Shown here: in pieces, positions 1,229 through 22,677 of the stretch
Layout: every line of letters begins with the position of its first letter
How positions within the stretch are numbered: position 1 is the stretch's first letter
Origin: Mycobacterium dioxanotrophicus
GTDB taxonomy: Bacteria > Actinomycetota > Actinomycetes > Mycobacteriales > Mycobacteriaceae
Direction: 5' to 3'
Assembly (NCBI RefSeq): GCF_002157835.1
Contig: NZ_CP020809.1
Location: forward strand, 7,006,001-7,070,000
Length of the DNA stretch: 64,000 nt
Position numbers and translations under genes: made by a program
The notes under the pieces: generated by a model
Databases searched by the model: none
Told to the model about the DNA's origin: nothing
What the model saw: the letters and a program-made list of their open reading frames with translations, nothing else

Positions 1229-3739
1229 GTGAGCTGCTCACCCGACCCGCGCCTCGACGACCTCCTCACCGTCGCGGAACGCTCCTACGAGGCACTGAGA
1301 GCGCACATCGAGTCATTGCCACCGGCGGTTGGCCGTGAGTTGGCCGAGCTGGCCGCCGATTACGGCCAAGAGGTGGCGCACAACGCCGACCGGATGGCCG
1401 AGGCGCCGCTGATCCTGCGAGTTGCAGGACTGCTGTGCCTCCACAGTGGTGAGATGGCTGCAGCCATCAACTGCAACCTGATCGCGTGCGAGGTCGACAA
1501 GGTCTTGGCGGAAGAGCCGGAGGCCTACGAAGCCGTGCGGCTGTCGTGTGAGAGTCTGGGCGAACTCGCCCGCAGCATCGCCCAACCGAAACTCGTCTTC
1601 GATGCGCTGGCGACCGCAGCCGACGCGGCGTACTTCCAGGCCGGTGCGTACCAGCAACGCGGCGAGCGGGACAGTTACCACACCGTCTTGAGGCAAGCTC
1701 TCGCCGCCTGCGTGCGTGCGGTCGAATTCGTCGAGGCCGCGACCGCCTTTCGGTTACGCGTCTTCGTCAGCTTGATCACCCAGACCGTTGTCGAGGCGAT
1801 GGGCGCGCTGGGCTGGTTCGAGGGCCATGACGAGGTCGAGGTCCGAGAGCAGCTGCGGACGCTGGCCCTGGCCATCGAAACCTATGTGCCGAACGACTTC
1901 TCGATCAGCGGTGACCCGGCGATCAGCGCGGAGTCCGCCGCTAGGCTGGCCCGATTGTCGTACGAATACGGCAGCCCAGACCACGGCCGTGGCCGACTAC
2001 TGGCGAGCCGAACGGATGACGACACCGACTCGATGGCTCCCCTCGAGAGGCTGTGCGCGCAGTACGCCCTGGAGCGGACGGCACAGCGCTCCGCTGACCA
2101 GCTTCACGCACTGCGCCGCGACGCGTGGTTCGCCATAGACTGCGCGCGCGACGCCGCATTGTCTCGCGCCGCGCGCGTGCACACCGCGCAACGGCTGGAC
2201 GCCCTGCTCAGCGAGATGATTCTCGACGAATTCCGGCTGCTGGTGGGCCGCGACGTCGATGACTGCTTCACGGCGCTGGAGGCCAACAAGTCCCGCATCC
2301 TACTCGACGAGCTGGACGGTAACACCGTCACCGTGGATGATGCCGCGACGGCAAAAGGCCTGCTGGCCAAGGAGAGTCAGCTGTTACACCTGGCCGCACA
2401 GGGGGCCGGTAAAGGCTGGGGCGAGCAGAGTCTGGTCAGCCGCCTGCCCATCGGTGGTCTCGACAGCTCGCCGGACAAGATCGACGTGCAGGGCATCAAC
2501 GAGCTCGACGAGGTTTATCGACGACACCGCGCAGGCTTCGTCGGGTCTGCGGGTATCAGCACCCTGCCGGAGATCATGGACAGTCTCCAGCCCGGCGAGG
2601 GACTGCTGCATCTGCACATTCCCTACGACCCACTCGACCCGGCCGGCGACTTGGTGATCTTGCTGATCACATGCGAGGGCGCCTTACCCATCCATCGGGC
2701 ACTGCCCGACCGGCTCACGCCCGACGACGACCTCCGGGCCATGCGGATGCAGGTGGACGGCAAACAACCCGTCGATGTGAGCCCGGTGGGACAAGCCATC
2801 ACGTTGGCGCGCTTGGCAATCCGCGAAGGTCACGATGACGAAGCCGCCAGTTACCTGCGTCCGTTGTACGACATACTGCTCGGCCCACTCGCCGACTACG
2901 GTCGCACTCCGGACACGTTCAGCCGACTGATCATCGTTCCGCACGGGCCGCTGCACGCGGTACCGTTCGCAGCCCTGCAAGCCGAGGACGGCCGGTTCGT
3001 CGCGCAAATGGTCGCCCACACCGTGGCACCCAGCGCCTCGGTCTGGCACCGGCTCCGCAAGCGGCCGGCAGCCACAGTGAGCAGTTTCGCCGGATTCGCC
3101 GACCCGCGGTTGGGCAGCCGGTGGGCCGCACTGCCCGATGCACGACGCGAGGTCACCGAAATTGCCGGACTGCTAAGTGCGTTGGCGGTGCAGACACACA
3201 CCGGTGCCGAGGCGACCGAAACCCGTTTCCGCGAGCTGGCGCCGGCCCAGTCAATCCTGCATCTGGCCACCCACGGCGAATTCCCTCAGGAAGATGCCAT
3301 CGATCTGCACCGCGCGTTGTTGACACCGGCCGACGGTCACGACGGACGTCTCCATGCAGAAGAGGTGCGCGGCATGGACCTGTCGGGCACCGCGCTGGCC
3401 ACACTGAGCATTTGCGACGGTGGGCTGGCCCGCTTCGGCCCCGGCGATGAGCAGTTCGGGCTGATCTCGGCGTTTTTGGCCGCCGGCGCGCGAAACGTCC
3501 TCGGGCCGCTGTGGGAGGTCGACGACGTGCGCACGGCACGCCTGATGGTGGAGTTCTACCGTCATCTGCTCGATCTGGGGCCCGCCGGGGCGCTGCAGAA
3601 AGCGAGCACGGCGTTCATGATGGCCGGCGAGCAGATCCGCGATTGGGCCGGCTTCGCGGTCTTCGGTGACGGACAACCGTTTTCGGCGGTCGGCTCCGGG
3701 TCGGACCATCGGCGACTCGCTGCGGAAATGCGGGTTTGA
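1229..3739 (+). CDS. Helical-repeat protein with C-terminal CHAT protease domain
   Basis: This is an 836-aa cytosolic protein without signal peptide or membrane segment. Residues 1 to about 400 are alpha-helical and Ala/Leu-rich, resembling the degenerate TPR scaffolds that precede CHAT domains. The CHAT domain occupies roughly residues 530-825. The caspase-like dyad appears intact: His682 in HLATHGE and Cys729 in LSICDGG, followed by the family's GPLWEVDD segment. CHAT proteins are cysteine peptidases of the caspase/separase clan, and some act in bacterial immunity, for example Csx29 and gasdermin-activating proteases. The start is GTG at 1229; no strong ribosome site is seen and the next in-frame Met is near residue 56. 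The next CHAT gene follows after 100 bp on the same strand, suggesting an operon. The natural substrate is unknown. Confidence 0.85.
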   Translation: MSCSPDPRLDDLLTVAERSYEALRAHIESLPPAVGRELAELAADYGQEVAHNADRMAEAPLILRVAGLLCLHSGEMAAAINCNLIACEVDKVLAEEPEAYEAVRLSCESLGELARSIAQPKLVFDALATAADAAYFQAGAYQQRGERDSYHTVLRQALAACVRAVEFVEAATAFRLRVFVSLITQTVVEAMGALGWFEGHDEVEVREQLRTLALAIETYVPNDFSISGDPAISAESAARLARLSYEYGSPDHGRGRLLASRTDDDTDSMAPLERLCAQYALERTAQRSADQLHALRRDAWFAIDCARDAALSRAARVHTAQRLDALLSEMILDEFRLLVGRDVDDCFTALEANKSRILLDELDGNTVTVDDAATAKGLLAKESQLLHLAAQGAGKGWGEQSLVSRLPIGGLDSSPDKIDVQGINELDEVYRRHRAGFVGSAGISTLPEIMDSLQPGEGLLHLHIPYDPLDPAGDLVILLITCEGALPIHRALPDRLTPDDDLRAMRMQVDGKQPVDVSPVGQAITLARLAIREGHDDEAASYLRPLYDILLGPLADYGRTPDTFSRLIIVPHGPLHAVPFAALQAEDGRFVAQMVAHTVAPSASVWHRLRKRPAATVSSFAGFADPRLGSRWAALPDARREVTEIAGLLSALAVQTHTGAEATETRFRELAPAQSILHLATHGEFPQEDAIDLHRALLTPADGHDGRLHAEEVRGMDLSGTALATLSICDGGLARFGPGDEQFGLISAFLAAGARNVLGPLWEVDDVRTARLMVEFYRHLLDLGPAGALQKASTAFMMAGEQIRDWAGFAVFGDGQPFSAVGSGSDHRRLAAEMRV

Positions 3740-3839
3740 TTTGATGCTGAGCCCACTTCCGTTCTCCCCCGGCATCTTCGGCTTCACCAGGACCAGCGAA
3801 CCGCCCCGTCACGTCTTGCGATAGGAATAGGAGGACACG

Positions 3840-6800
3840 ATGGCGACCATCCGCCGTGGCGCACTGGAGCTCGACCTTCCCGACAACGTGTCGATCGCGG
3901 AGGAACGACCCGACGTGGGTCGCCGTCGCCGTGGCGGCGCCGGCGCCGTTGCTCCAACCGATGTCGTTCCACCCGACGTGGTCGCCCAAGCCCTGGCGGA
4001 CCAACTCACCGTGGTCGACACCGTGCCACTCGAGGTCTCCGCCGGTGCACCAGCGCCTCGCCGCCGCGGCCCGGCGCCGTCGGCGCTGATGCGAGTCGAC
4101 GTCGCACCTGACGAACACGCGGTGGTACTCGTCGAGCAGGACGGCTACTACTCCTGGATCACCGGCGCGAAAGAGGCGCCGTCGCCGGCGACGCGCCGCG
4201 GCCCGTCAACGGCCATCGTCACGTTCGAGATCCCGCTCGACACCAAAGCGCCTGGGGGAGCTTCGCCCAAGCGGGGTCCGATCTCCGACGCGTTGATCAA
4301 GCCGGTCACCACCATCGTCTTTCGGTTTGCCGCCAGGCTGGTCATCGGCCAACTCGTCAAACGGCTGGAGCGTGCGATCGAGCCCGGTGTGGTCACGATC
4401 GACCAGGTCGATCCCGTCACGTGGACCAAGCTCGCCGACCCGAAGACAGTCCCGTTGCCCACCGATCGACGCGCGCGGGTGCTGCTTCTCGTCCACGGCA
4501 CTTTCAGCTCCACGCGCGGCGGCTTCGGCTCGTTCATCGGCACCGACGCCGGCAAGCACCTCCTCGAGCGGGCCGTGGCGGACTACGACGCGGTGTTGGG
4601 CTTCGACCACCGCACACTCAGCGAAGACCCGCTCGAGAACGCCGAACAGCTGCTGACTGCCTTGCGCGCACTGCCCGCTGATGCCGGCGTCGACATCGAT
4701 GTCGTCACCCACAGCCGCGGCGCACTGGTTGTCCGCAGTCTGGTGGAACATGCCCTGGAGGCAGACGACCGGCTGAGCATCGGCAAGGTCGTCATGGTCG
4801 CAGGCCCGAACGCCGGCACACTGCTGGCCAGCCCGAAAAACTGGAAGACATTGGTCGACCTCTACACGAATCTCGCGGTCGGCATCTGCCGGGTGATCGG
4901 CATTGCCGCGCCGCCGGCAGCGACAGTGACGACCATTTTGCGGGAATCGCTTCAGGCTCTTGCCATCCTGGTCAAGGCCATCGTCGCCGAAGCGGCCGAC
5001 GAGCAACGAGTGCCGGGGCTGGGGGCCATGGTCCCCGGCGGCAGGTTCATCACCGACATCAACCGCAGCGCCGCACCCGGACATCCGATCGCCGCGGCGT
5101 ATTACACGGTGTCATCCGACTTCGAGGTCACCGGGCTGTCCGGACCCCAGGAGCTACCCGACAAACTGAAACGGCTCGTCGCCGACGGCTTCGTCGACCA
5201 ATTGATGGGTGAGGCAAACGATCTGGTGGTCGACGTCAAGTCCATGACGGCGGTCGACCCCGGCACGCCGGGGCTCATCCACCAATCCTTCGCCCTGGGC
5301 GACAACCCCACCACCTACCACTGCTCCTATTTCGTCGATCAATCGGTGCTCGAGGCGATCGAAGGCTGGCTGCTCGGGCGGCCCGACACCGACGCCTCGC
5401 CCGGTGCCGACGCTTTTCCTGTCGGCCAAATGGTCAACGCCCTGCCCGATTTCGTCGACACCAATTTCGCGATGATCGACGCGTACTCGCCGGTGAACAT
5501 CGTGACCCGACAGCTGCGCGACTCGACTCACGACTTCGCGGTGGTGCGGGACCTGGACGCCGACGGCCAGGTGGTCCACTACGCCTTCACCACCGACGAG
5601 TTCCTCGGTATCACCGGAGCCATCGCGCCCGAGCTGAGTCAGTTGAGCCTCACTCAGACCGGCGCGCTGACCGACACCGTGCCCTCCCCGGCGACCAGTT
5701 CGATCAGGATCATCGCGCCGCGACCGCCTGCCGCGGCGTCGCCGTGGGCATCGAGAACCGTTGTGCTGTTGGATGGTTCACCTGTGGGCGTGGTACCGCC
5801 GACCGATGTTCTCGACGCAAACGCGGGCCGGCGACGGCGCGGCGGCCAGGAAGAAGCCCTTGCCCTCGACGACCAGCTCGAGGAGGCGGCACAGCCCACC
5901 ATTCAGGCTTACTTCCGCGCCGAGACTGACGCAGTGATCAGCACTACGGAGGAATCACTTGTCCTCGTTGATATTGCGCTGGAGGTGCTGGAGGGCCTCA
6001 TCGGGCCGAACGCAAAGGGTGGCTCGGCCGACATCGACAGCACCAAGCCCATCACCGTGCACGTGGTGCCGCGGATCAACCTGAGCATCAACGGCGACAA
6101 GCACGCCACCGTCAAGCCGCCGGTGGCCGGCGAGCCGCGCAGCCTTCGGTTCTCTGTGACAGGCACTCGTCCCGGCCCGGGCCAGCTCTTGGTCATCGCC
6201 GGACAGGGGCCGGTCGACCTGGTGAAACTCGTCCTCGACGTGACCGTCGTCAACGGCCAGCCGGCCGACGGCGGGCGCGCCGCGGTCTGCGCCGCGCTCC
6301 CGACAGTGACCGACGCGCCGAACTCTGATCAGCTGATCATTGACGAAAACACCACCGTCGCGATGTCGCCGGACGGTCAGCGCGAGGTTGTGGTCGACAC
6401 CAAGTTCGATGTGCGCTTCAGATCCGAAACGCTCGACCTCGAGCTGCGCGATACCACCGACACGATCAAGGGCGATCGCCTCGACTATGTGACCAAGCTG
6501 TACAAGCAGATCGAGGCGGACTGGGGCACGAGTGCCAAAGACGCCACGGCCTTCAACCGCGCACTGCGCGCCTACGGGGGACAGCTGTTCGACGAACTGC
6601 TACCCGAGTCCATCCAACGGCAGCTCTGGGATAACCGGGACAAGATCAAGCAGATTCAGGTCAACAGTGTCGACCCGTTCATTCCCTGGGAGATCGTCCA
6701 TCTCAAAGGCCCTGACGGCAAACTGCCCACCGAGGAACTGTTCCTGGCCAATATGGGCCTGGTTCGCTGGATCGACAACGCACGCATCGCACCACAAAAG

Positions 6801-7442
6801 GTCGAGGTGCGCTCCGGACATGCGAACGCGATCACTCCGTCCTATCCGGAAGGATCGGGCTGGAGCCTCGCGGAACCGGCCAACGAGTTCGACTACCTGG
6901 AATCGGCGTTCGGTGCCACGCGGGTGGAAGCCGATGTAGAGACGATCATGACTCTGCTCGAACAGCCCGGCCAATTCGACCTCCTGCATTTCGCCGGGCA
7001 TGGAATGGCCGACGCCGGCGACATCGCCAACGCCGGACTGATCATCCAGGTGCGCAACATGAATGGTCGCTGGGAGCCGGTGTCACTCAGCCCGACGCTG
7101 GTCGAACAGTACGCGAGGCTACGCATCGAGAAGGGCAATCGCCCACTGGTGTTTCTCAACGCCTGCCAGGTGGGGCGTGCCGGTTACCAGTTGACGCGGG
7201 TCGGCGGATTTGCCCAGGCGTTCCTGAAAGCCGGGGCGGGCATCTTCGTCAGCACACTGTGGTCGGTTGTCGACGAACCGGCCCGCATCTTCACCGAAGA
7301 GTTCTACGGAGAGCTGATCGCCGGCAAAACCGTGGCACAAGCGACAGTGGCCGCCCGGCAGAAGTGCCGCGCCGCGGGTGACCCCACCTGGCTGGCCTAC
7401 GTCGTGTACGGACGACCCGATGGGCGCCTGATCAAGCGATAG
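3840..7442 (+). CDS. Alpha/beta-hydrolase-CHAT fusion protein
   Basis: This is a 1200-aa protein. Residues 1-150 form a Pro/Arg-rich linker with GRRRRGG at 27-33 and short RRGP or KRGP motifs near 75, 119 and 144. Residues about 190-480 form an alpha/beta-hydrolase domain with oxyanion-loop HGTFSS (219-224) and nucleophile elbow THSRG (Ser292), where Thr replaces the first Gly of GxSxG. A second GRRRRGG stands at 663-669. A beta-rich region follows, then a CHAT domain at about 930-1200 with His1054 (FAGHG) and Cys1109 (LNACQVG). A strong ribosome site (AGGAGG) precedes the ATG at 3840. The fusion joins a possible lipase or esterase to a caspase-like module, and the preceding gene encodes a second CHAT protein. 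Proteolytic control of the hydrolase is an attractive inference but is not shown by the sequence. Confidence 0.85.
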   Translation: MATIRRGALELDLPDNVSIAEERPDVGRRRRGGAGAVAPTDVVPPDVVAQALADQLTVVDTVPLEVSAGAPAPRRRGPAPSALMRVDVAPDEHAVVLVEQDGYYSWITGAKEAPSPATRRGPSTAIVTFEIPLDTKAPGGASPKRGPISDALIKPVTTIVFRFAARLVIGQLVKRLERAIEPGVVTIDQVDPVTWTKLADPKTVPLPTDRRARVLLLVHGTFSSTRGGFGSFIGTDAGKHLLERAVADYDAVLGFDHRTLSEDPLENAEQLLTALRALPADAGVDIDVVTHSRGALVVRSLVEHALEADDRLSIGKVVMVAGPNAGTLLASPKNWKTLVDLYTNLAVGICRVIGIAAPPAATVTTILRESLQALAILVKAIVAEAADEQRVPGLGAMVPGGRFITDINRSAAPGHPIAAAYYTVSSDFEVTGLSGPQELPDKLKRLVADGFVDQLMGEANDLVVDVKSMTAVDPGTPGLIHQSFALGDNPTTYHCSYFVDQSVLEAIEGWLLGRPDTDASPGADAFPVGQMVNALPDFVDTNFAMIDAYSPVNIVTRQLRDSTHDFAVVRDLDADGQVVHYAFTTDEFLGITGAIAPELSQLSLTQTGALTDTVPSPATSSIRIIAPRPPAAASPWASRTVVLLDGSPVGVVPPTDVLDANAGRRRRGGQEEALALDDQLEEAAQPTIQAYFRAETDAVISTTEESLVLVDIALEVLEGLIGPNAKGGSADIDSTKPITVHVVPRINLSINGDKHATVKPPVAGEPRSLRFSVTGTRPGPGQLLVIAGQGPVDLVKLVLDVTVVNGQPADGGRAAVCAALPTVTDAPNSDQLIIDENTTVAMSPDGQREVVVDTKFDVRFRSETLDLELRDTTDTIKGDRLDYVTKLYKQIEADWGTSAKDATAFNRALRAYGGQLFDELLPESIQRQLWDNRDKIKQIQVNSVDPFIPWEIVHLKGPDGKLPTEELFLANMGLVRWIDNARIAPQKVEVRSGHANAITPSYPEGSGWSLAEPANEFDYLESAFGATRVEADVETIMTLLEQPGQFDLLHFAGHGMADAGDIANAGLIIQVRNMNGRWEPVSLSPTLVEQYARLRIEKGNRPLVFLNACQVGRAGYQLTRVGGFAQAFLKAGAGIFVSTLWSVVDEPARIFTEEFYGELIAGKTVAQATVAARQKCRAAGDPTWLAYVVYGRPDGRLIKR

Positions 7443-8020: not shown

Positions 8021-8036
8021 GCACTACGGCTGGCGG

Positions 8037-8110
8037 TGTCCTTGGAGGGAGTCGAACCCACAACCACTGGAATCTGAATCCAGCGCCTCTACCAGTTGGG
8101 CTACAAGGAC
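8037..8110 (-). tRNA. tRNA with CAG anticodon in a short-variable-loop body
   Basis: Read on the minus strand this folds as a cloverleaf: acceptor GTCCTTG paired perfectly with CAAGGAC, a D-stem of three pairs, anticodon stem CTGGA/TCCAG around the loop TTCAGAT, a 5-nt variable loop, and a T-arm with loop TTCGACT. The discriminator is A and CCA is not encoded. Anticodon CAG would read the leucine codon CUG, yet leucine tRNAs are class II with a long variable arm, which is absent here. One T-stem pair is mismatched. The body looks more like a glutamine tRNA, whose CTG anticodon differs by one base. It may be a non-canonical or decayed tRNA. Confidence 0.75.
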
Positions 8111-8123
8111 GTGTTGACGGAAG

Positions 8124-8195
8124 TACCCCTGAGAAGATTCGAACTCCCATCCTCAGCGTCGTAGGCTGTCGCTCTTTCCGTTGAGCTACAGGGGC
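8124..8195 (-). tRNA. tRNA-Arg (ACG)-like, divergent
   Basis: Read on the minus strand: acceptor GCCCCTG with CAGGGGT (a G-T pair at position 1-72), D-arm GCTC/GAGC, anticodon stem ACAGC/GCTGA with a mismatch at its outer pair, loop CTACGAC giving anticodon ACG, a 4-nt variable loop, and a T-arm with TTCGAAT and two G-T pairs. The weak acceptor end and mispaired anticodon stem differ from a housekeeping tRNA. The gene lies between the HNH nuclease gene (68 bp upstream) and the CAG tRNA (13 bp downstream), all on the minus strand, so the three could form one transcript. Confidence 0.75.
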
Positions 8196-8263
8196 ATTCG
8201 GACGTCTGCGCCGCGCACGTGGTGAACGGGCGGAGGTTGAGCCAGGCTCTTCCAACGCGCCCG

Positions 8264-8749
8264 TCACACCAGTGCAGGCATCCGCGCGAACCTGTCGCGC
8301 TGACGAGGTTCGAACGGTTCGCGAATCATGCGCATCCCGGCTTCGTATGGAGTGCGGTCGCCTTTGCGGCCATTGCAGGCCTGGCAGGCCGCCACCAAAT
8401 TGAGCCAGGAGTCAGATCCGCCGCGACTCCTGGGCAGCACGTGATCGATAGTCTGAGCACGTCCACAGCAATACACACAGGTGCTGCGGTCGCGGCGCAG
8501 AATTCCTTCGCGCGTTGCACGTTCGTTGTGCCGGTACGGAATGTGCACGTATTCGCGCAACTCCACCGACATGGGCAGCTCGATCACCAGCGAGGGGCCA
8601 TGGATGTGCACGGCCGGGCTGTGGCGATCGATGACGTACACGGCGTCACGCAGCATCAGCTGGATCGCGTCCTGCCACGGTATTCGGGACAGCACGCGGT
8701 AGTCGGCGTTGTAGACCTCGACTGTCAGATCGGGTATCTGAATCGGCAT
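8264..8749 (-). CDS. HNH endonuclease
   Basis: The product has 161 aa. The C-terminal half carries the HNH fold: a CVYC zinc-knuckle pair, the catalytic IDHVLPRSRGG segment with DH, the asparagine in SWLNLVAAC, and a second CQAC knuckle followed by NGRKGDR. This arrangement is common in short actinobacterial HNH nucleases, which cut DNA with a divalent metal. The N-terminal 75 residues are beta-rich and unassigned. A near-ideal ribosome site (AAAGGAGG, 8759-8766) stands 9 bases before the ATG. Two atypical tRNA genes follow directly downstream. Whether it is a homing, phage-derived or defence nuclease cannot be told from sequence. Confidence 0.88.
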   Translation of the reverse strand: MPIQIPDLTVEVYNADYRVLSRIPWQDAIQLMLRDAVYVIDRHSPAVHIHGPSLVIELPMSVELREYVHIPYRHNERATREGILRRDRSTCVYCCGRAQTIDHVLPRSRGGSDSWLNLVAACQACNGRKGDRTPYEAGMRMIREPFEPRQRDRFARMPALV

Positions 8750-9529: not shown

Positions 9530-11023
9530 ATGACGTCGAACCCCGTTGGCCAAGAACGGAAGTTGCACAAAGGCACCAACTGGTGGGGTGCCTTTGTCAT
9601 CGGTCTGGCCGGCCCATCCTGGTCACCGGGATCGACCCCCGGCCGTGCAAGCCCTCGGCGCGGCCGCGATACCCCTGCTCGCCGTCACGACAGCGATCGG
9701 TGTGTTGCTGTGCCTGTTCGCCGCCGAACTGGCCGCCGTGATGCCGCACCGCACCGGCGGCCTGCCCTCCTACACCACCGAATCCTTCGAACTCGTCCAC
9801 CCCGCCACCGCCACCCACCTCGGCGGCCTGTCGGCCTGGGCCTACTGGCTGGGCTGGTTTCCCGTCGCCCCATCAACATGATCCTGGCCTCGGCCTACAT
9901 CACCCAACTGTTCTCCATACCGCAAGGACCATCGTTCCTGCCGTTCGGCGGACTGGGCAGCCCCATCACGCTCTCGGTGCTGATCATCTCCGTCGTCGCC
10001 ATCGCCATCATGTACGTCCCGGCCTACTTCGGCATCAAACTGGGCGCCGAATTCGCCACCATCCTGGGCATCGTGTCCATGGCACCCCTGACCATCCTGA
10101 TCCTGCTGCCCCTGTTTCACCCCAGCTCGATCCACCTGAGCAACCTCGCCGGCTTCCACTTCGCCCCCGGCGTCCTGGGCAGCCCCACCCTCATCCTGGC
10201 CTGGATGTTCGTCATGACCTGGTCGGTGCTGGCCATGGAAGCCGCCGCCTGCTACCTCGGCGAATGCCGCAACCCCGCCCGCGACGCCAAAATCGCCATG
10301 ACCATGGAAGGCGTCTACGGCTTCTTCATCTTCGTCTTCATGGCCGTCGCCCTGGTCGCAGTCCTGGGCGTGGCCAAAGACGCCGACCCCCTGACCATCT
10401 TCACCTCACTGATCACCGCCGTCACCGGATCCTCGGCGGCTGGGTGCAATGGGCCCTGGGCCTACCGCTGATCGTGGCGCTGCTGCTCTCCGTACTCAAC
10501 GCCATCATGGGCTGCGCCCGCTCCCTCTACCAAGCCTCCGAAGACGGCATGCTGCCCCGCTGGTTCGGCCACCTCAACACCCACGGCGTGCCCGCCCGCG
10601 CGATGGCCTTCAACGTGGTCTGCTCATTCCTGGTCCTGCTCTTCGGCAGCCCCTGCGCATCTACATCTTCTCCAACATGGGCTACCTCTTCTCCGCCGGA
10701 CTGGTGTTCTTCGCCTACTTCGCCCACCGCCAAACACGACCCACCATCCACCGCCCGTACGACTGCCCGGCTTCATGCGCTGGCTGTCCCTGGCCATCGG
10801 ACTATTCGTCCTGGTGCTATGGCTCTTCGGCGGCTGGAACAGCCCCGCCATCGTCATCGGCACCCCCAGCCACACCCTCTTCTTCGTCGGCGTCCTCATC
10901 CTCGCCGCCTACATCCCACTACACATGTGGCGCCGCATCACCGACCGCCGCCGCCCACACACCACACCCACACCCATCACCACCCACACCCCCGAACCCG
11001 AACCGGAACCGGAACCCGTATGA
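9530..11023 (+). pseudogene. APC-family amino-acid permease, copy A, multiply frameshifted
   Basis: This is the counterpart of the intact permease at 14685-16184. Compared with that copy it has one base missing at six places, each inside a C or G run: near 9613, 9636, 9868, 10435, 10650 and 10754. The first two losses come within 40 codons of the start, so no full-length protein can be read. Nothing else in the regions compared differs. The stop codon overlaps the start of the next gene (ATGA), so the original order was permease followed by USP with translational coupling. Losses restricted to homopolymers are what uncorrected sequencing error produces, so the gene may be intact in the organism. 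Confidence 0.8.
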
Positions 11024-11493
11024 ACACCAAATTCAAACGCCGCCGCGGCGATCAGCAACCCGCAACGCCCCGCGACGTCGTCATCGTCATACGCCCCAAC
11101 GCCCCCGCATCCGACGCACTGTTCAAGGCCGCACGTGCCGCGGGCGGCACAGCGACAGTTGTTGTGCCACTGAAGATCCACGGTTATTCCCTCGGAATGC
11201 CCAACCCCGGTCTTATGCCAACGGCGCGAGAATCCGCGGCAGCCAACACCGGGGTCACCAAGACCGTCGACAGGCTGCGCCGCGCGGGTGTCGATGTGGA
11301 CGGCCAGATCGTGGTCACCCGCCACGCCGACCGTGCGATCACCCGGATCGTTCGCCTTCGCGGCGCAACGCGGGTCCTGATGGAAACATCGACCGCCAGC
11401 CCACTTCGGCGGTTCCTGGAAGGCGATTTACATCGCCGGCTCGCGCGCCGATTAGAACCTAGCGTGACCGTCGAATCGATACCTCAGCCCTGA
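11020..11493 (+). CDS. USP-like protein coupled to the permease
   Basis: The product has 157 aa. Its ATG overlaps the stop of the upstream permease (ATGA), so translation is probably coupled. After a basic, disordered N-terminus (residues 1-18), residues 19-150 read as a universal-stress-protein-like alpha/beta fold: the first strand DVVIVIRP, a helix, a second strand TVVVPL, and a later strand QIVVTR followed by the helix HADRAITRIV. The nucleotide-binding G-2x-G-9x-G motif of canonical UspA is not evident, so this may be a non-ATP-binding regulatory version. The partner copy of the permease at 14685-16184 lacks such a downstream gene. A role in regulating transport is inferred from the pairing. 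Confidence 0.65.
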   Translation: MNTKFKRRRGDQQPATPRDVVIVIRPNAPASDALFKAARAAGGTATVVVPLKIHGYSLGMPNPGLMPTARESAAANTGVTKTVDRLRRAGVDVDGQIVVTRHADRAITRIVRLRGATRVLMETSTASPLRRFLEGDLHRRLARRLEPSVTVESIPQP

Positions 11494-11724
11494 TGCGATA
11501 ACCCGCCCATCGCCAATCAAGCGACTCGGGCTTCGATGCGTCGAGGTGGTAGCCGGGTCAGGTTGTCGCCGATGCGCCCGGAGTGGGCGTTAGTGAATTC
11601 AGCGACAACCAACCCGGCGACCACGGCCGATGCCCCCGGCGTTGGGCAGCTGGCCTGAACATCCCTTATCCGGTGCCCACAGGGCTCGGTCGGCGAACGG
11701 TCAAACACGACGGGAAGGTATGTC

Positions 11725-12180
11725 GTGAGCGGGTTTGAAGGCCAGCACACACCAAGCTCCCACTCGGACACGTCAGGGATCGGGCGATCCGGCGGTCCGC
11801 CCGCGCGTCGTTCAAAAAGTTCCACGAAACCGGGCTCAAGACACCAAATCCGCGCCGGATCAGAGGTCAAGCTGGCGTGGTCGCTTGCCGACACGGTCGC
11901 GGCCTGCTTCACCGACGCCGAGCATGCCTGGACCTACGCTGCGTTGGGTGCGGGCGAAGCATCCGCCACCATCCGGCGAGTGCTCGATATTGTTGTGCGC
12001 CAAAGATTTCCTCTGCCGACCAAGCTCATCAGAGCTGTGGAATCATGGCTGGAGTGCTATGCCGGCACCGACAACGAATCGCAGCTGCGCGATCTCATCC
12101 GTCGGCTGGTGCCACAGGCCGTTACCCAGCCGCAAAACGTCGGACCCGCGGTCTCCTGGCCACGTCGTCGCCTGTCATAA
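11725..12180 (+). CDS. Hypothetical helical protein, paralogous to 34282-34629
   Basis: The product has 151 aa. Residues 1-45 are Ser/Gly/Pro-rich and probably disordered. Residues 47-130 form a helical region matching the product of 34282-34629: both show an Ala-Trp start, an Ile-Arg or Ile-Asp helix, a LP.K/D.L turn, a conserved Trp followed by Tyr-x-Gly (WLECYAG against WVSAYEG), and a final LR.L segment. The start is GTG at 11725 with GGGAAGG upstream. No enzyme motif is visible and the function is unknown. The flanking stretches 11494-11724 and 12181-12422 show no gene. Confidence 0.55.
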   Translation: MSGFEGQHTPSSHSDTSGIGRSGGPPARRSKSSTKPGSRHQIRAGSEVKLAWSLADTVAACFTDAEHAWTYAALGAGEASATIRRVLDIVVRQRFPLPTKLIRAVESWLECYAGTDNESQLRDLIRRLVPQAVTQPQNVGPAVSWPRRRLS

Positions 12181-12422
12181 ACGCGAGGGCGAACACGGCG
12201 GCATCAACGGCGGATGGATGCCCGACGCGGCGAAGCTACCCATCCCGAGACGTACTCGCAGGGACGGCGTTTGACTGTTTTCGTGTGACACGGGAGGACC
12301 TCCGGGATTGGTGGACATGTCTCCCCGATCAACCAACTGTCACCAACGTGGCTGCCGAGTACACCTACGATGCGGCCAACCAAGCCTGACCGCAGACACC
12401 GGAGAGAGCCTGCGGCAGCGGG

Positions 12423-14405
12423 TTATCCTCCGACGTGCACGATCGGTCGGCGTTTCACATTGGGTTCGGCCTGGCGGAGCACTTCGCGGGTGACCGGCGC
12501 GGTCTCGCCTTGGCCGAGTAGGACGAATCGGGCCAGGTGGGCGAGGGGATTGCCTTCGGTCCATTGGAAATGCAGGTGTGGCAGTAGGCCGGTGTGGTCG
12601 CGCACGCGCAGCATCAACGCGGCGAGGGCGTTCGGGGCGGCTGCGCTCTCCAGTCTCAGCAGATGGTGGCCGGCGGTTTCGATCCCGTGAACGATCAGAG
12701 TGGAGGAGAACTCCGAGGGGTCTGTCACTTCGACCTCGACGACGATGACGTGCGCCTCGGGTGGGATCGGGTTGAGCAGACGCTGCTGGTGTTCTTTTTC
12801 TTTCAGCTCTTCTGCGGTCTCGTCACAGTGATAGCGGTGCGCGATGAAATGCAGCGATCCCGCGGTGATGCCGTCGGCGATGAAAGCCAGTGCCAGGTCG
12901 TCGAATTCGATGCGCTCGTGCCGCAGTTCGGTGCTGCGACTGATCCGAGAAGCCAGCGAGACCACGGCCATCGCGACGATGAACAGCACTGAGATGACGA
13001 TGCCGTCCGGCTTGTCGATGATGTTCACAGCCACGGCGTACGCCAGTAGCGCGGTCACGAGGCCGAATCCGATGGCGGCGCCGGTGCGGTGGTAGCGGCG
13101 CATGGCCAGGGTCACCGCGAATGCCCCGGACATCATCATGACCAGGATGCCGGTGGCGTAGGCGCCGGCCTGGGAGTCGACATCCGCCCCGAACCAGATG
13201 GTGATCGCGATCGCGATCGCGGTGTTGAGCAGCACGACGGGGCGTAGCGCGCGGCCCCATTCGGGGGCCATGCCGTATGAAGGAAGGTAGCGCGGCACGA
13301 TGTTGATCAGCCCGGCCATGGCCGAGGCGCCGGCGAACCACAGGATCAGGATTGTGCTGATGTCGTAAGCGGTACCGAACCCATTGCCGAGTAGACCGTG
13401 GGCCAGGTATGCCAGTGCACGCCCGTTGGCCTGCCCGCCGGCGGCAAACTCCGGGGCCGGGATGAGCACAGTGGTGATGAAGCTGGTCGCGAGCAGATAG
13501 GCACTCATGATGATTGCCGCGGAGGCGAGAAGCTTTCGGGTGCGGGCGATTCGGCTCTTCAATCGCTCCTTGTCGGTCTTTCCGTCAGCCTTGATCAGCG
13601 GCATCATGCTCACCCCGGTCTCGAACCCGGACAGGCCCAGGACCAACAGCGGAAACGCAATGAAAGCCGTGACCAGGGCATTCCCCGCGCCGCCGGTGGC
13701 CAGCATCGTTGTGAACCAGTCGTGCACGCGGACAGGTTGGCCGATACAGGACACCACCCCGGCGATCACCACAACCAGGTTGAGGCCGAGGTAAGCCACC
13801 ACCAGCGGCACCGCAACGATGACCGCTTCACTGAAGCCGGCCAGGAACACCCCGCCCAGGATGAGCAGCAGGATCACCGTGATCACGACAGCGTGGCCGT
13901 CGAAAGCTTTTGGTGTGAAAGGATTCTCGATCAGATGCGCAGTGGCATCAGCCGCGGACAGGGTGATGGTGATGATCCATGAGGTGACCACGAACCCCAA
14001 CAGCACGAGCACGAGCAGTTTGCCCCGCCAGAACGGCAACAGTCGTTCCAGCATCGCCACCGATCCCTGCCCGTGGGGGCTCTCCTGGGCCACCCTCCGG
14101 TACATCGGCAGCATGCCCAGCAGGGTCAGGAACACGATAAGCAGCGTGGCGAGCGGCGAGATGGCGCCGGCGGCCAATGCGGCGATCCCCGGCGTATAAC
14201 CAAGACTGGAAAAGTAATCCACACCGGTCAGGCACATCACTTTCCACCAGGCGTTTTCCTCGTGGTGCTCCTCGGATACCTCCGGCCCGGTGATTGACGT
14301 GATCCGCTCGCGCATCAGCCAACGAACGAACGGACTCGCTGAACGCTGACGTCTGTCCGGTATCGGATCGGCGACTGTGATATCTGGAAGCCCGGTCTGG
14401 GTCAT
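12423..14405 (-). CDS. APC-superfamily permease with C-terminal cytoplasmic domain
   Basis: The product has 660 aa. Residues about 60-510 contain twelve or more hydrophobic segments, including TGVDYFSSLGYTPGIAAL and FETGVSMMPLI, which resemble the substrate-binding breaks of large amino-acid/polyamine permeases. Residues about 530-660 form a soluble tail with a beta strand (AHVIVVEVEVTD) and helices. The family imports amino acids or related cations across the plasma membrane. ATG at 14405 is chosen because GGAGGA lies 5 bases upstream; the open frame runs further but without a ribosome site. The gene lies wholly inside the segment bounded by the inverted repeat, so inversion would reverse it. 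The exact substrate cannot be told. Confidence 0.8.
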   Translation of the reverse strand: MTQTGLPDITVADPIPDRRQRSASPFVRWLMRERITSITGPEVSEEHHEENAWWKVMCLTGVDYFSSLGYTPGIAALAAGAISPLATLLIVFLTLLGMLPMYRRVAQESPHGQGSVAMLERLLPFWRGKLLVLVLLGFVVTSWIITITLSAADATAHLIENPFTPKAFDGHAVVITVILLLILGGVFLAGFSEAVIVAVPLVVAYLGLNLVVVIAGVVSCIGQPVRVHDWFTTMLATGGAGNALVTAFIAFPLLVLGLSGFETGVSMMPLIKADGKTDKERLKSRIARTRKLLASAAIIMSAYLLATSFITTVLIPAPEFAAGGQANGRALAYLAHGLLGNGFGTAYDISTILILWFAGASAMAGLINIVPRYLPSYGMAPEWGRALRPVVLLNTAIAIAITIWFGADVDSQAGAYATGILVMMMSGAFAVTLAMRRYHRTGAAIGFGLVTALLAYAVAVNIIDKPDGIVISVLFIVAMAVVSLASRISRSTELRHERIEFDDLALAFIADGITAGSLHFIAHRYHCDETAEELKEKEHQQRLLNPIPPEAHVIVVEVEVTDPSEFSSTLIVHGIETAGHHLLRLESAAAPNALAALMLRVRDHTGLLPHLHFQWTEGNPLAHLARFVLLGQGETAPVTREVLRQAEPNVKRRPIVHVGG

Positions 14406-14611
14406 CGTGTTCCTCCACGAAGGGCATTGGCTGGTAAGGCAATTGGGCACGGCCGGGTCCGAACGACAGCGGAACCCCAGGTGAGATGGTGTCGTGCAGG
14501 ACAATCCATCGGTACTGGGAGTTCCGCTGTCTTTTCTGGGCCCCCCACCTGGCGTGTCATGGTCGCCAGAGGCCCGGTCAGGGTGATCGGTCGTCAGCTG
14601 GCGACCGAGGG

Positions 14612-14681
14612 GTGGGTGTCGTTTTCGGTTATGCCCGGATTTCGCTGGGTCTCCACACCAGAGGATGCGGATTTATCGGCC
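14612..14681 (+). pseudogene. Possible N-terminal remnant of a serine recombinase (resolvase)
   Basis: From GTG at 14612 the frame reads GVVFGYAR, and after a 10-base offset (14639-14648) a second frame reads VSTPEDADLSA up to the repeat boundary at 14682. Joined, these match the hallmark start of serine recombinases, GYARVST followed by an acidic or polar helix, with the catalytic serine in VST. The remnant stops exactly where the permease repeat arm begins. This suggests that the arm replaced or interrupted a recombinase gene. The match is short, needs a frameshift and could be chance. The adjoining 14406-14611 shows no gene. Confidence 0.4.
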
Positions 14682-14684
14682 TGT

Positions 14685-16184
14685 TCATACGGGTTCCGGT
14701 TCCGGTTCGGGTTCGGGGGTGTGGGTGGTGATGGGTGTGGGTGTGGTGTGTGGGCGGCGGCGGTCGGTGATGCGGCGCCACATGTGTAGTGGGATGTAGG
14801 CGGCGAGGATGAGGACGCCGACGAAGAAGAGGGTGTGGCTGGGGGTGCCGATGACGATGGCGGGGCTGTTCCAGCCGCCGAAGAGCCATAGCACCAGGAC
14901 GAATAGTCCGATGGCCAGGGACAGCCAGCGCATGAAGCCGGGCAGTCGTACGGGGCGGTGGATGGTGGGTCGTGTTTGGCGGTGGGCGAAGTAGGCGAAG
15001 AACACCAGTCCGGCGGAGAAGAGGTAGCCCATGTTGGAGAAGATGTAGATGCGCAGGGGGCTGCCGAAGAGCAGGACCAGGAATGAGCAGACCACGTTGA
15101 AGGCCATCGCGCGGGCGGGCACGCCGTGGGTGTTGAGGTGGCCGAACCAGCGGGGCAGCATGCCGTCTTCGGAGGCTTGGTAGAGGGAGCGGGCGCAGCC
15201 CATGATGGCGTTGAGTACGGAGAGCAGCAGCGCCACGATCAGCGGTAGGCCCAGGGCCCATTGCACCCAGCCGCCCGAGGATCCGGTGACGGCGGTGATC
15301 AGTGAGGTGAAGATGGTCAGGGGGTCGGCGTCTTTGGCCACGCCCAGGACTGCGACCAGGGCGACGGCCATGAAGACGAAGATGAAGAAGCCGTAGACGC
15401 CTTCCATGGTCATGGCGATTTTGGCGTCGCGGGCGGGGTTGCGGCATTCGCCGAGGTAGCAGGCGGCGGCTTCCATGGCCAGCACCGACCAGGTCATGAC
15501 GAACATCCAGGCCAGGATGAGGGTGGGGCTGCCCAGGACGCCGGGGGCGAAGTGGAAGCCGGCGAGGTTGCTCAGGTGGATCGAGCTGGGGTGAAACAGG
15601 GGCAGCAGGATCAGGATGGTCAGGGGTGCCATGGACACGATGCCCAGGATGGTGGCGAATTCGGCGCCCAGTTTGATGCCGAAGTAGGCCGGGACGTACA
15701 TGATGGCGATGGCGACGACGGAGATGATCAGCACCGAGAGCGTGATGGGGCTGCCCAGTCCGCCGAACGGCAGGAACGATGGTCCTTGCGGTATGGAGAA
15801 CAGTTGGGTGATGTAGGCCGAGGCCAGGATCATGTTGATGGGGGCGACGGGAAACCAGCCCAGCCAGTAGGCCCAGGCCGACAGGCCGCCGAGGTGGGTG
15901 GCGGTGGCGGGGTGGACGAGTTCGAAGGATTCGGTGGTGTAGGAGGGCAGGCCGCCGGTGCGGTGCGGCATCACGGCGGCCAGTTCGGCGGCGAACAGGC
16001 ACAGCAACACACCGATCGCTGTCGTGACGGCGAGCAGGGGTATCGCGGCCGCGCCGAGGGCTTGCACGGCCGGGGGGTCGATCCCGGTGACCAGGATGGG
16101 GCCGGCCAGACCGATGACAAAGGCACCCCACCAGTTGGTGCCTTTGTGCAACTTCCGTTCTTGGCCAACGGGGTTCGACGTCAT
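14685..16184 (-). CDS. APC-family amino-acid permease, intact copy B
   Basis: The product has 499 aa and twelve predicted membrane segments. Near the N-terminus, after a hydrophilic 15-residue leader, WWGAFVIGLAGPI forms the first helix with the glycine-rich break typical of APC carriers. The C-terminal tail is short, with a Thr-Pro stretch and a PEPEPEPEPV end. ATG at 16184 has AAGGGA 6 bases upstream and starts the hydrophilic leader; an earlier GTG-type start is possible. The substrate is probably an amino acid or amine. Unlike copy A, this copy is not followed by the USP-like gene: the sequence after the stop runs into the recombinase-like remnant. Codon use matches the neighbours. Confidence 0.85.
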   Translation of the reverse strand: MTSNPVGQERKLHKGTNWWGAFVIGLAGPILVTGIDPPAVQALGAAAIPLLAVTTAIGVLLCLFAAELAAVMPHRTGGLPSYTTESFELVHPATATHLGGLSAWAYWLGWFPVAPINMILASAYITQLFSIPQGPSFLPFGGLGSPITLSVLIISVVAIAIMYVPAYFGIKLGAEFATILGIVSMAPLTILILLPLFHPSSIHLSNLAGFHFAPGVLGSPTLILAWMFVMTWSVLAMEAAACYLGECRNPARDAKIAMTMEGVYGFFIFVFMAVALVAVLGVAKDADPLTIFTSLITAVTGSSGGWVQWALGLPLIVALLLSVLNAIMGCARSLYQASEDGMLPRWFGHLNTHGVPARAMAFNVVCSFLVLLFGSPLRIYIFSNMGYLFSAGLVFFAYFAHRQTRPTIHRPVRLPGFMRWLSLAIGLFVLVLWLFGGWNSPAIVIGTPSHTLFFVGVLILAAYIPLHMWRRITDRRRPHTTPTPITTHTPEPEPEPEPV

Positions 16185-16270
16185 GTCGCGTCCCTTCGCG
16201 GGGCTGCGGCGTGCAGCGGACGAACGCACCTCAGCGGTGTGATTCGGAGCACAGTACGCCTGTTTCGCGG

Positions 16271-16289
16271 CAAGAAACAGAATTTCTTG
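16271..16289. promoter_or_regulatory. Inverted repeat upstream of permease, copy B (candidate operator)
   Basis: This is the second copy of the CAAGAAA/TTTCTTG site, about 87 bp upstream of the copy B permease start. It would place both permease copies under the same regulator. Confidence 0.4.
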
Positions 16290-16380
16290 TTGTGAAAAAC
16301 CTGTACGCCCCGGACCGCCCCCGACACCCCCAGATCAGCACTGCTTGCCCACGCAAAAACCCACCGCCACAACAACGTCC

Positions 16381-17016
16381 GAGATCCCGCTCCACAGCCC
16401 AGTCAGTCGAGCAGCGATTGCCTAGACCTTCTAATTGACTGACTTCGATCCGCACCGACCGTTCTTCTACGCAGCAGAACTTCTCACCCGTCGCCGGAAT
16501 GTTCATAAAAGGTGGCCACCGGTCTTCCAAATCACTTCGGCAACAACGTAGTACGCGTCGCCGACCGCGACAGTCGCGCCACGGGCCGGTAACAGAAGCA
16601 GCGAATTACCCGCCCTTCGAGGTCTAATGCCAGGCGGTGAGACTCGGCGACGATGCCGACCGCGTATTCGCACACCTTCGAGTCTCCGGCTCACCTCAGG
16701 CACCAACACTGATACGACCATCAAACCCCTTGCCTACCATGCAAACTCGTCGTACGCGTCTGTCCGACAATGGATCTGACCTCGACGTTCGCCGACGCGA
16801 GTTGAAGGTCAAGATCGTTGTACCGCCCACCCGGGCCGGCATCCAACCGCGCCAACCGCTCAAAAGCCTTGTCCTGCTGATCCGCCGGGATATGTGGTCA
16901 GCCATCAGATACTCACAGCAACGTGATGGTGGGCTCCTCGGCAGCATCGCTGGCTTGCATTACCGGCGAGGTTTCGCACCACCGGGACCCGTCTGCAAGG
17001 CAGACAAAACCATGAA
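16381..17016. other. Intergenic debris between the repeat arm and an MFS fragment
   Basis: No intact gene is supported. On the minus strand at about 16741-16895 one frame reads like genuine protein (IPADQQDKAFERLARLD, then a Gly-rich turn and a Leu/Ala/Val segment) with GC-rich third positions. It has no start: a stop sits immediately upstream and a nearby ATG is in a neighbouring frame. This suggests a decayed gene. The rest, including 16381-16740, shows only short unconvincing frames. Confidence 0.4.
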
Positions 17017-17177
17017 ATGCCGCGCGCGACCCCCACTGTTGCCTTCGCCCAGATGCTGATGTCGTTCAACGTCGCCGCGCTGCCGGTATCGATCGGCGGC
17101 ATGGTCGCAGACTTCAGCGTGTCACCAACCGCGGTCAGCACCGCGATCGTCACCTACGGACTGGTGGTCGCCGCGGT
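17017..17177 (+). pseudogene. Truncated N-terminus of an MFS transporter
   Basis: ATG at 17017 opens a frame whose first 53 or so residues read as the first membrane helix, loop and second helix of a major-facilitator transporter (AQMLMSFNVAALPVSIGG, then SPTAVSTAIVTYGLVVAA). The homology stops near 17177, after which the frame reads antisense to the flavin monooxygenase encoded on the minus strand. The fragment ends inside the last codons of that gene, so the breakpoint of a deletion or rearrangement lies here. A product from this fragment would not be functional as a carrier. Confidence 0.6.
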
Positions 17178-18545
17178 GGTGAATGCACCGCGGTACTGCG
17201 CCGCAGGATGCCGATCGTTGATCAGGTCGGTGCCGAACAGTTTGGCACGCACTGTTCCCGGCGCATACTCGCGCTGCGCCAGACCGCGGCGTTGCAGCTC
17301 CGGAATGACGTGATCGACGAACTCCTCGTAGCTGCCCGGAATCGTGGCATTGACGACGTTGATCCCGTCCACCCCAGCATCACGCCAGCGCTGCAGTTGA
17401 TCGGCGATACTCTCCGGGGTTCCGACGACACGAGAGTTGCGTCCCTGCAACAGTCCGAGGTCGCGCACGGTGGCCTCCCGACCGCGCACCGATTCCTGTA
17501 CCCATTGCACGATGCTGCGGGTGCCGTCGGTCTCGGCGATGTCACCAAGCGGGGTGTCCAGGTCGTGGCCGCCGAAGTCGACGCCCACGGCCCCTGACAG
17601 GTGGGCGACCATGCCGTCGAGGTCGATCGCTTCATCGAGGTCGAGCTCCTTGCGGCGGGCCTCCTGCTCGGTGCTGCCTATCACGAAATGCAAACCTTGG
17701 AAGAACTTCAGATCACCGGGTTTGCGCCCCGCGGCGACCACCCGGCGTCGGGTGTCATCGATCAGGTCACGCGCCGCATCAGGACCGGGACTGATGATGA
17801 ACTGCGCTTCGGCGTTGCGGGCAGCGAAATCACGCCCGGCCAAGGATGATCCGGCCTGGAACAGCACCGGTGTTCGTTGCGGCGAGGGTGCCACCAGGTG
17901 CGGGCCTTCTACCCGGTACCGCTTGCCGGCGTGATGGATCTTGTGGATCTTGTTGAAGTCGCCGTGCAGACCACGGGTGCGGTCCTGCAACAGCGCACCG
18001 TCGTCCCAGGACCCCTCCCACAGCTTGTAGGTGACGTCGACGTATTCGTCGGCCCACCGGTAGCGTTCATCGTGTTCCTCGAGTCCGTCGTAGCCGAAGT
18101 TGCGGGCGGCATTGGCCAAGGCGCTGGTGACGATGTTCCAGGCGATGCGCCCGTGGGATGCGTGATCGAGCGTCGAGATTTTTCGCGCGAAGTTGAACGG
18201 GTGTTCTTGGATCACCGAGCTGGTGACGGCGATTCCGAGATCGGTGGTGTTGAAGGCGATGGCCGACGCGATAACGCTGGGATCGTTACTGGGTATCTGC
18301 AGGCCGCTCTGCACGTACTTCTCATAGGACCCGCCGTAGTCACCGTAGAGTCCCACGACGTCGGCGAAGAATATGAAGTCGAATCGGCCCCGTTCGAGGA
18401 CCTTGGCCAGATGTACCCAGTGATCCAACGAATTGAAGTCGGTCTGGCCCGCATCGGGCTGTCGCCACAGTCCCTGCAGGATATGCGAGGTGGTGTTCAT
18501 GACGAAGGCGGAAAAACGCAGAGGCGGTGCGGGCGAGGTCGACAT
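17154..18545 (-). CDS. NtaA/SnaA/DszA-type FMNH2-dependent monooxygenase (1)
   Basis: The product is a 463-aa luciferase-like TIM barrel. Family hallmarks are GLWRQPD near residue 26, the FDFIFFADV strand, the STLDHASHGRIAWNIVTS segment that lines the flavin site, the YRWADEYVDVTYKLWEGSW helix, and PVLFQAGSS. Such enzymes oxidise sulfonates, sulfones, nitrilotriacetate and similar compounds using reduced FMN from a separate reductase. The gene is divergent from the sugar-type ABC importer at 18685, sharing a 139-bp promoter gap. Its final codons overlap a truncated MFS fragment on the other strand, so its natural C-terminus may have been replaced. The substrate is unknown. Confidence 0.85.
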   Translation of the reverse strand: MSTSPAPPLRFSAFVMNTTSHILQGLWRQPDAGQTDFNSLDHWVHLAKVLERGRFDFIFFADVVGLYGDYGGSYEKYVQSGLQIPSNDPSVIASAIAFNTTDLGIAVTSSVIQEHPFNFARKISTLDHASHGRIAWNIVTSALANAARNFGYDGLEEHDERYRWADEYVDVTYKLWEGSWDDGALLQDRTRGLHGDFNKIHKIHHAGKRYRVEGPHLVAPSPQRTPVLFQAGSSLAGRDFAARNAEAQFIISPGPDAARDLIDDTRRRVVAAGRKPGDLKFFQGLHFVIGSTEQEARRKELDLDEAIDLDGMVAHLSGAVGVDFGGHDLDTPLGDIAETDGTRSIVQWVQESVRGREATVRDLGLLQGRNSRVVGTPESIADQLQRWRDAGVDGINVVNATIPGSYEEFVDHVIPELQRRGLAQREYAPGTVRAKLFGTDLINDRHPAAQYRGAFTTAATTSP

Positions 18546-18684
18546 TCACCGAATCTGGCGATGAAACACGGCATGGTGCAATCGTTTCGATCACGATGCG
18601 TCGCATTCCCGAAGATCCTCACCGTGGCGTTCACGATGAGCAAGACCATCGTTCGGCCCCAAGGCGTCGGCTAGCTTCTGCCCG

Positions 18685-20025: not shown

Positions 20026-20035
20026 AAGATACGCC

Positions 20036-21607: not shown

Positions 21608-21611
21608 CCAC

Positions 21612-22640: not shown

Positions 22641-22653
22641 CGCCCTCGGTCCC

Positions 22654-22677
22654 GGTCACCCGGCTTGTGCGGTGACC
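22654..22677. terminator. Possible bidirectional terminator between convergent genes
   Basis: GGTCACC and GGTGACC form a perfect 7-bp stem around a 10-nt loop, sitting at the junction of the convergent permease and monooxygenase genes and overlapping the last codons of the latter. There is no T run, so termination is plausible but not assured. Confidence 0.35.

Follow-up and report, generated by a model that had tools for sequence, protein, structure and literature searches.

Adjacent hydrolase-CHAT and TPR-CHAT genes of Mycobacterium dioxanotrophicus suggest a protease-controlled enzyme switch related to VMAP-type systems

We analysed a stretch of 64,000 nucleotides of the Mycobacterium dioxanotrophicus genome (contig NZ_CP020809.1, positions 7,006,001 to 7,070,000; hereafter the window), in which two genes for caspase-like CHAT proteins stand side by side, one encoding an 836-residue protein with N-terminal helical repeats (TPR-CHAT, from tetratricopeptide repeat) and the other a 1200-residue protein in which an alpha/beta hydrolase is fused to the CHAT domain (hydrolase-CHAT). 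Three parts, a serine-hydrolase domain, a DUF7363-CHAT part and a TPR-CHAT part, recur fused, split or adjacent; the catalytic residues are conserved, and one relative of the fused protein is directly tied to a ternary conflict operon. Taken together, these observations suggest that the pair forms a small enzyme switch under protease control, probably a form of the alpha/beta hydrolase-caspase unit known from VMAP-type systems that lacks the ternary core. A single testable unit thereby links the uncharacterised Pfam families DUF7362, DUF7379 and DUF7363 to two CHAT proteases.

Two CHAT proteins with conserved catalytic residues

The main features of the two genes, all on the forward strand, are the following (positions refer to the window):

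1229..3739, +, TPR-CHAT gene, 836 residues, GTG start; helical repeats at about residues 1-450, CHAT domain at 542-814
3272..3415, +, catalytic stretch of TPR-CHAT, from His682 (3272-3274) to Cys729 (3413-3415), identical in 59/59 rows
3829..3834, +, AGGAGG, resembling a ribosome-binding site, 5 nucleotides before the ATG at 3840 (from the sequence)
3840..7442, +, hydrolase-CHAT gene, 1200 residues, from the reading frame, Pfam domains and predicted structure
3975..4250, +, DUF7362 domain, residues 46-137 (Pfam 6e-9, over the cut-off)
4452..5375, +, alpha/beta hydrolase region, about residues 205-512 (Pfam DUF7379 at 215-408)
4713, 5220 and 5319, +, candidate triad Ser292, Asp461 and His494, the latter two assigned from invariance and position
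5454..5792, +, TCAD7-like domain, residues 539-651 (Pfam 22.9 bits against a cut-off of 24, E 9.9e-5)
5919..6236, +, DUF7363 domain, residues 694-799 (Pfam 4.3e-25, over the cut-off), all-beta in the model
6573..7376, +, CHAT domain, residues 912-1179 (Pfam 2.7e-21, over the cut-off)
6999 and 7164, +, CHAT dyad His1054 and Cys1109, from conservation across rows
6687-6692 and 7272, +, putative S1-pocket residues Trp950-Glu951 and Asp1145, assigned from topology

The tandem arrangement proposed in a first-pass annotation of this DNA is borne out by the open reading frames (ORFs), which lie on the same strand 100 nucleotides apart, and by Pfam, which recognises CHAT in both products. Both genes have the guanine-cytosine content of coding DNA at the three codon positions (0.72/0.48/0.80 and 0.69/0.47/0.81 for the 836- and 1200-residue genes, respectively). 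No promoter-like site was found between positions 950 and 8300, a scan for RNA families returned nothing beyond two tRNAs, and a terminator between the genes was considered and dropped (a weak terminator-like site at 3720-3733; four such sites found against 3.2 expected). The genome of 8.08 Mb contains three CHAT matches, two of which are this pair, and the two CHAT domains are distant from each other (26% over 164 residues; hhalign 96%), so that the pair is not a recent duplication.

In the TPR-CHAT protein, the CHAT domain (PF12770) is recognised well above the cut-off (2.3e-53) and the N-terminus matches no Pfam family in the Pfam scan; this N-terminus is all-helical in the predicted structure and aligns with the TPR-CHAT protein Csx29, the protein having the TPR-CHAT fold, in agreement with the helical-repeat architecture that had been proposed. 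It falls far below the model for Csx29 itself, the protein of type III-E (Craspase) systems (NCBIfam NF041237, 24.7 bits; cut-off, 300 bits), and, unlike Csx29, its neighbour is a hydrolase-CHAT protein.

The domains of the 1200-residue protein follow the order DUF7362, alpha/beta hydrolase DUF7379, TCAD7-like, DUF7363 and CHAT. The assignment of a fused hydrolase with the serine elbow THSRG holds, since DUF7379 (PF24096) scores 230.5 bits against a cut-off of 33 (2e-68) and Ser292 is kept in 118 of 121 aligned rows, the others being two gaps and one glycine; these rows are the window protein plus 120 from the database, a set that includes the window's own copy. The serine, aspartate and histidine of the hydrolase are conserved across relatives in the alignment. 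Both CHAT dyads, which the first reading of the DNA had noted as retained, are invariant (His682/Cys729 in 59/59 rows and His1054/Cys1109 in 121/121); proteolytic activity is predicted for both proteins. A search of the PDB by sequence with the 1200-residue protein gave no match at E 1; a profile search returned DdvA, SAVED-CHAT and, weakly, a lipase. The predicted structure models agree with the expected folds of both proteins.

Recurrence of the parts and kinship with VMAP-type systems

The five-domain hydrolase-CHAT protein is widespread. A split form also occurs, in genomes of the window's family (three) and in other genomes of the phylum (three), in which a gene of about 740-840 residues, here called CHAT', directly precedes a hydrolase gene of about 490-520 residues; CHAT' corresponds to the C-terminal half of the fused protein, residues 686-1200 (profile comparison, 100%, 5e-41). 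With the 836-residue protein as query, matches were obtained in 107 of 394 genomes of the class, nearly all to CHAT only, and a single genome (G908) contained a long relative, covering residues 58-815 at 31% identity; in 149 genomes of that genome's family, profile searching gave matches in 35 and no further long relative. In G908 the order on one strand is CHAT', hydrolase and the near-full-length relative of the 836-residue protein, so that the parts encoded by two genes in the window are spread over three in this genome.

Other arrangements point in the same direction. In a locus of Variovorax JS1663 (L030) the fused protein is followed by a CHAT protein of 1152 residues whose gene overlaps by 58 bases, in G345 a hydrolase gene cut by the contig start is convergent with a TPR-CHAT gene, a single small ORF separating the two, and in G525 the order is CHAT, CHAT', hydrolase. 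In Bradyrhizobium (L068-L092), a CHAT protein of about 415 residues, a protein X of about 530 residues and the fused protein occur in this order in 12 loci; the one protein X scanned (from L068) matches no Pfam family. Of 79 loci, 20 have a second CHAT gene at most five genes from the hydrolase, and Bradyrhizobium accounts for 12 of these. In an even sample of 396 genomes of the phylum, six of the seven with a strong DUF7379 match have CHAT fused, adjacent or at most two genes away. Two hydrolases have no CHAT within 20 kb, namely the one in G090 (L136) and an additional copy in G908 (L229). Genes in the fetched loci were called with a simple ORF picker, and these neighbour lists may include wrong ORFs. 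In a good number of cases the hydrolase, CHAT' and TPR-CHAT parts belong together, in a loose arrangement of which the exact pair is a rare form. We also observed a similar CHAT, X, CHAT order, with no hydrolase, on a Hymenobacter plasmid (L152), and a relative of the fused protein (P0090) that carries an additional C-terminal C14 caspase domain. Close relatives include P0002, P0122 and P0123, at 90, 86 and 83% identity.

The first-pass annotation knew of no described system with this layout, a statement that proved too strong. A survey of VMAP ternary systems reports that every caspase-superfamily domain in them is accompanied by an alpha/beta-hydrolase gene next to it (Kaur et al., 2020; PMC7159879), and a further report links TCAD9 to vWA-MoxR-VMAP (PMC10910872). 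Like the VMAP-MoxR-vWA systems, the window couples a caspase-superfamily domain with an alpha/beta hydrolase, and a candidate TCAD-type domain scores just below its cut-off (PMC7159879); unlike them, it has hydrolase and CHAT on one chain and a TPR-CHAT gene beside it. The survey's main text names neither CHAT nor TCAD (PMC7159879), and equating the domains is our own step.

The direct tie is found in a metagenome-assembled genome of Phycisphaerae (L033, positions 9857-21248), in which the fused protein is followed by a serine-protease-like protein, a VMAP-C protein, a MoxR-like AAA protein and a protein of 1339 residues. The genes overlap or almost touch, and VMAP-C is the second gene after the fused protein (the identity of this stretch was checked). 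The serine-protease-like gene product matches chymotrypsin-fold proteases at E 1e-5, the MoxR-like protein has a Walker A motif, and the 1339-residue protein has DUF7363- and CHAT-like stretches, both weak. A vWA domain in the last protein was considered and set aside: it has no PDB match, and a vWA-like motif at its start is the sole hint.

The window unit is thus kin to part of a described conflict system, standing without its core. No MoxR or vWA gene was found among the part of the window ORFs that was scanned with Pfam. What sets the unit apart from the VMAP pairing is probably the ternary-free form, the fusion of hydrolase and CHAT and the TPR-CHAT gene alongside, which would give a concrete partner arrangement to a hydrolase-caspase pairing noted without a mechanism in the available text of the 2020 survey (PMC7159879).

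Several results weigh against this reading. VMAP-C (PF20028) has no match in the M. dioxanotrophicus genome and is absent from 31 of the 34 genomes holding the hydrolase-CHAT family; among the three that have it, it lies on another contig than the family gene in two (G1094 and G048) and is linked to the family only in the Phycisphaerae locus. The expectation that the two genes are kept together held in the G908 cluster and the Variovorax locus and failed within the window's own family, in which none of 200 other genomes has a full-length relative of either gene (any match to the two proteins being present in 13 and 9 of 201 genomes, own included). The exact pair of an 836-residue and a fused 1200-residue protein is rare, and in 59 of 79 loci the fetched flank contains no further CHAT. 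The model of the 1200-residue protein has a predicted template modelling score of 0.49 and leaves the packing of the domains unfixed. As an explanation of the whole, a protease-controlled hydrolase module that is a ternary-free variant of the VMAP-type hydrolase-caspase unit stands, in our judgement, slightly short of an even chance.

The 59 loci with a single CHAT would also fit a situation in which the two genes are mere neighbours, the fused protein being self-sufficient and TPR-CHAT having another partner; the distance between the two CHAT domains, with no recent duplication, and the flanking genes of the pair, both unrelated to it, would fit as well. Against this stand the 836-residue relative directly after the hydrolase and CHAT' genes in G908, the fused protein with its CHAT partner in Variovorax and the convergent hydrolase and TPR-CHAT genes of G345, and we consider mere proximity improbable. 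That protease and hydrolase form a jointly working unit appears rather likely.

Putative arginine specificity, RRG motifs and a proposed mechanism

Separases, gingipain-R and MALT1 cleave after arginine, and separases also cleave themselves, according to a structural report (PMC4626109). In the separase model described there, two acidic residues hold the P1 arginine: Glu917, which lies beside Trp916 in the segment following strand beta1, and Asp1082, with which helix alpha4 begins (PMC4626109). In the second CHAT domain of the window, Trp950-Glu951 follow strand 939-943 and are identical in 121/121 rows, and Asp1145, at the head of helix 1145-1160, is conserved in 117/121. From this matching of positions by topology, which is not a residue-level structural alignment, we infer a separase-like protease that would prefer arginine in P1. 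The window protein differs from separase in being bacterial and fused to a hydrolase, with no cohesin-type substrate. Since the equivalent positions of TPR-CHAT are Phe580-Ala581 in place of Trp-Glu, and only Asp766 is kept (58/59 rows), its specificity may differ from that of the second CHAT.

The 1200-residue protein carries candidate cleavage motifs of the [RK]RG type, which lie on the forward strand as follows (pLDDT, predicted local distance difference test):

3921..3935, +, RRRRG, residues 28-32, in a stretch with pLDDT<50
4059..4070, +, RRRG, residues 74-77, in a stretch with pLDDT<50
4194..4202, +, RRG, residues 119-121, in a stretch with pLDDT<50
4269..4277, +, KRG, residues 144-146, in a stretch with pLDDT<50; Arg145 and Gly146 kept in at least 90% of 27 rows
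5829..5843, +, RRRRG, residues 664-668, between the TCAD7-like and DUF7363 domains

Five of the six [RK]RG sites of the window protein lie in stretches with pLDDT<50, which total 135 of 1200 residues. Fused proteins contain 2.47 RRG per protein, against 0.59 (standard deviation 0.07) in shuffled sequences, with 252 of 300 in linkers, a count that is partly circular, as the linker borders were chosen once the model and the first motif positions had been seen. A better test, shuffling within linkers over 65 non-redundant rows, identified five linker sites at which 25-45% of rows carry RRG; the shuffled linkers gave 3-7%.

A rival reading is that the RRG-rich linkers act as charged and flexible tethers through which the protein would bind membranes or nucleic acid. 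RR itself is about twofold enriched in linkers, and RRG does not track the fused protease, because hydrolases without a fused CHAT carry it nearly as often (0.74 per N-terminus in 19 proteins, of which some are truncated, against 0.98 in 45 fused and 0.20 in five split ones); the notion that RRG marks fused proteases accordingly failed. These counts speak against cleavage, as does the lack of an RRG cluster between the hydrolase and TCAD7 (site f525). The residue after RR is glycine in 116 of 318 cases, glycine making up 9% of linkers, and neither RRP nor RRV shows enrichment, so that residue-specific recognition looks likelier than charge alone. On balance, tethers have not quite an even chance, and RR|G as a cut site, a proposal read from the sequence, is doubtful.

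Within the reading of the pair as a protease-controlled switch, the TPR-CHAT protein could act as initiator, its helical arch blocking the protease until a trigger binds, as in Csx29. Once activated, it would switch on the second CHAT, which, separase-like and with arginine in P1, would cut RR|G in the disordered linkers of its own chain. Such cuts would strip the N-terminal DUF7362 stretch and part CHAT from the hydrolase, and the released lipase-like hydrolase might then attack membrane lipid or another ester, leading to growth arrest or cell death. Trigger, substrate, protease cascade, hydrolase release and lipid target are all putative. That activation of the hydrolase depends on CHAT is conceivable, at a little under even chance, and the full "polyprotein executioner", combining a P1-arginine CHAT, a lipase-like zymogen, RR|G sites on one chain and a separate TPR-CHAT initiator, seems to us improbable as a package. 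If it were true, the two proteins would form a caspase-like cascade in two steps, ending in the release of a hydrolase that attacks membranes, and would work without the VMAP-MoxR-vWA core, from which, or into which, the unit would have been recruited.

The logic resembles that of the Canu caspase-nuclease, in which a caspase-like protease is reported to switch on a gated pro-enzyme encoded beside it (PMC12799240); here the effector is an alpha/beta hydrolase on the protease's own chain and not a nuclease of the metallo-beta-lactamase fold, none of which was found in the two proteins or in the flanking genes among the part of the window ORFs scanned. The window would thus offer a candidate case of a caspase-like protease that controls a lipase-type enzyme, beside the Canu pro-nuclease of that report (PMC12799240). 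With SAVED-CHAT it has the CHAT domain in common (PADLOC match 2.7e-4, 18 bits), and it differs in that neither protein has a SAVED domain among Pfam matches up to E 0.1. No paper on this gene layout, or on DUF7379, DUF7363 or DUF7362, was found in a search that covered titles and the openings of abstracts, with most subscription journals outside it.

Genomic surroundings and the question of an immune role

An immune role of the pair, anti-phage or in another conflict, is a tentative proposal that we rate as possible, at less than an even chance. The defence-island check that the first-pass annotation suggested gave no support, which also counts against the reading: PADLOC families give no sign of enrichment in adjacent genes (121) compared with genes five positions away (100), in a sample from which 20 of the 79 loci were dropped as near-duplicates and to which eight other loci were added. 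At 1e-10, 11 families were found in the 121 adjacent genes and 83 in the 100 distant ones, the latter figure being driven by few proteins.

This lack of enrichment would suit an accessory or housekeeping stress module, in which the hydrolase would serve lipid remodelling or ester detoxification at a level set by the CHAT proteins, with no part in immunity. Signs resembling vertical inheritance would suit it too, namely a gene of about 300 residues divergent just upstream in several Terrabacter and Intrasporangium loci, and the order repeated in the 12 Bradyrhizobium loci. The patchy distribution in the window's own family and the accessory surroundings of the window argue against it, and so do the neighbours of several relatives: the VMAP/MoxR operon of the Phycisphaerae locus; an AAA ATPase and then a NACHT protein with a sub-threshold trypsin match after hydrolase-CHAT in Pseudomonas sp. 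R5(2019) (L056:405-9217); an AAA_21/SIR2_2 protein and a hypothetical gene after hydrolase-CHAT on a Ruegeria pomeroyi megaplasmid (L150:7218-14082); and, in G278 (L133), an IS110 transposase on one side of a split CHAT'/hydrolase pair and Hen1/Pnkp RNA-repair genes on the other. We regard a stress module as unlikely. Among the Pfam families listed for neighbours (the first 25 of 138 and of 80), EAD1 and TCAD9 have two members each of 72; like the Pseudomonas, Ruegeria and G278 contexts, taken singly, these neighbours hint at defence.

The gene for a transporter upstream of the pair has a close relative (78%) in one other of 60 genomes of the genus, and the HNH gene downstream has relatives at 66-68% inside tRNA-rich stretches of three genus genomes, with 28, 5 and 27 tRNAs in the arrays around the closest ones (L238, L239 and L240); mobile DNA is therefore close by and the surroundings are accessory. 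A viral origin was rejected (37 pattern matches in viral_contigs, none confirmed as a relative), and among plasmids 20 records had partial matches, none covering >80% of the query. The downstream stretch is:

8035-8749, -, tRNA-Leu(cag), tRNA-Arg(acg) and HNH gene

This stretch may be the remnant of a tRNA array. Further downstream, at 17154-27456, three genes for luciferase-like monooxygenases lie near genes for an ABC-transporter ATPase and an NlpA lipoprotein.

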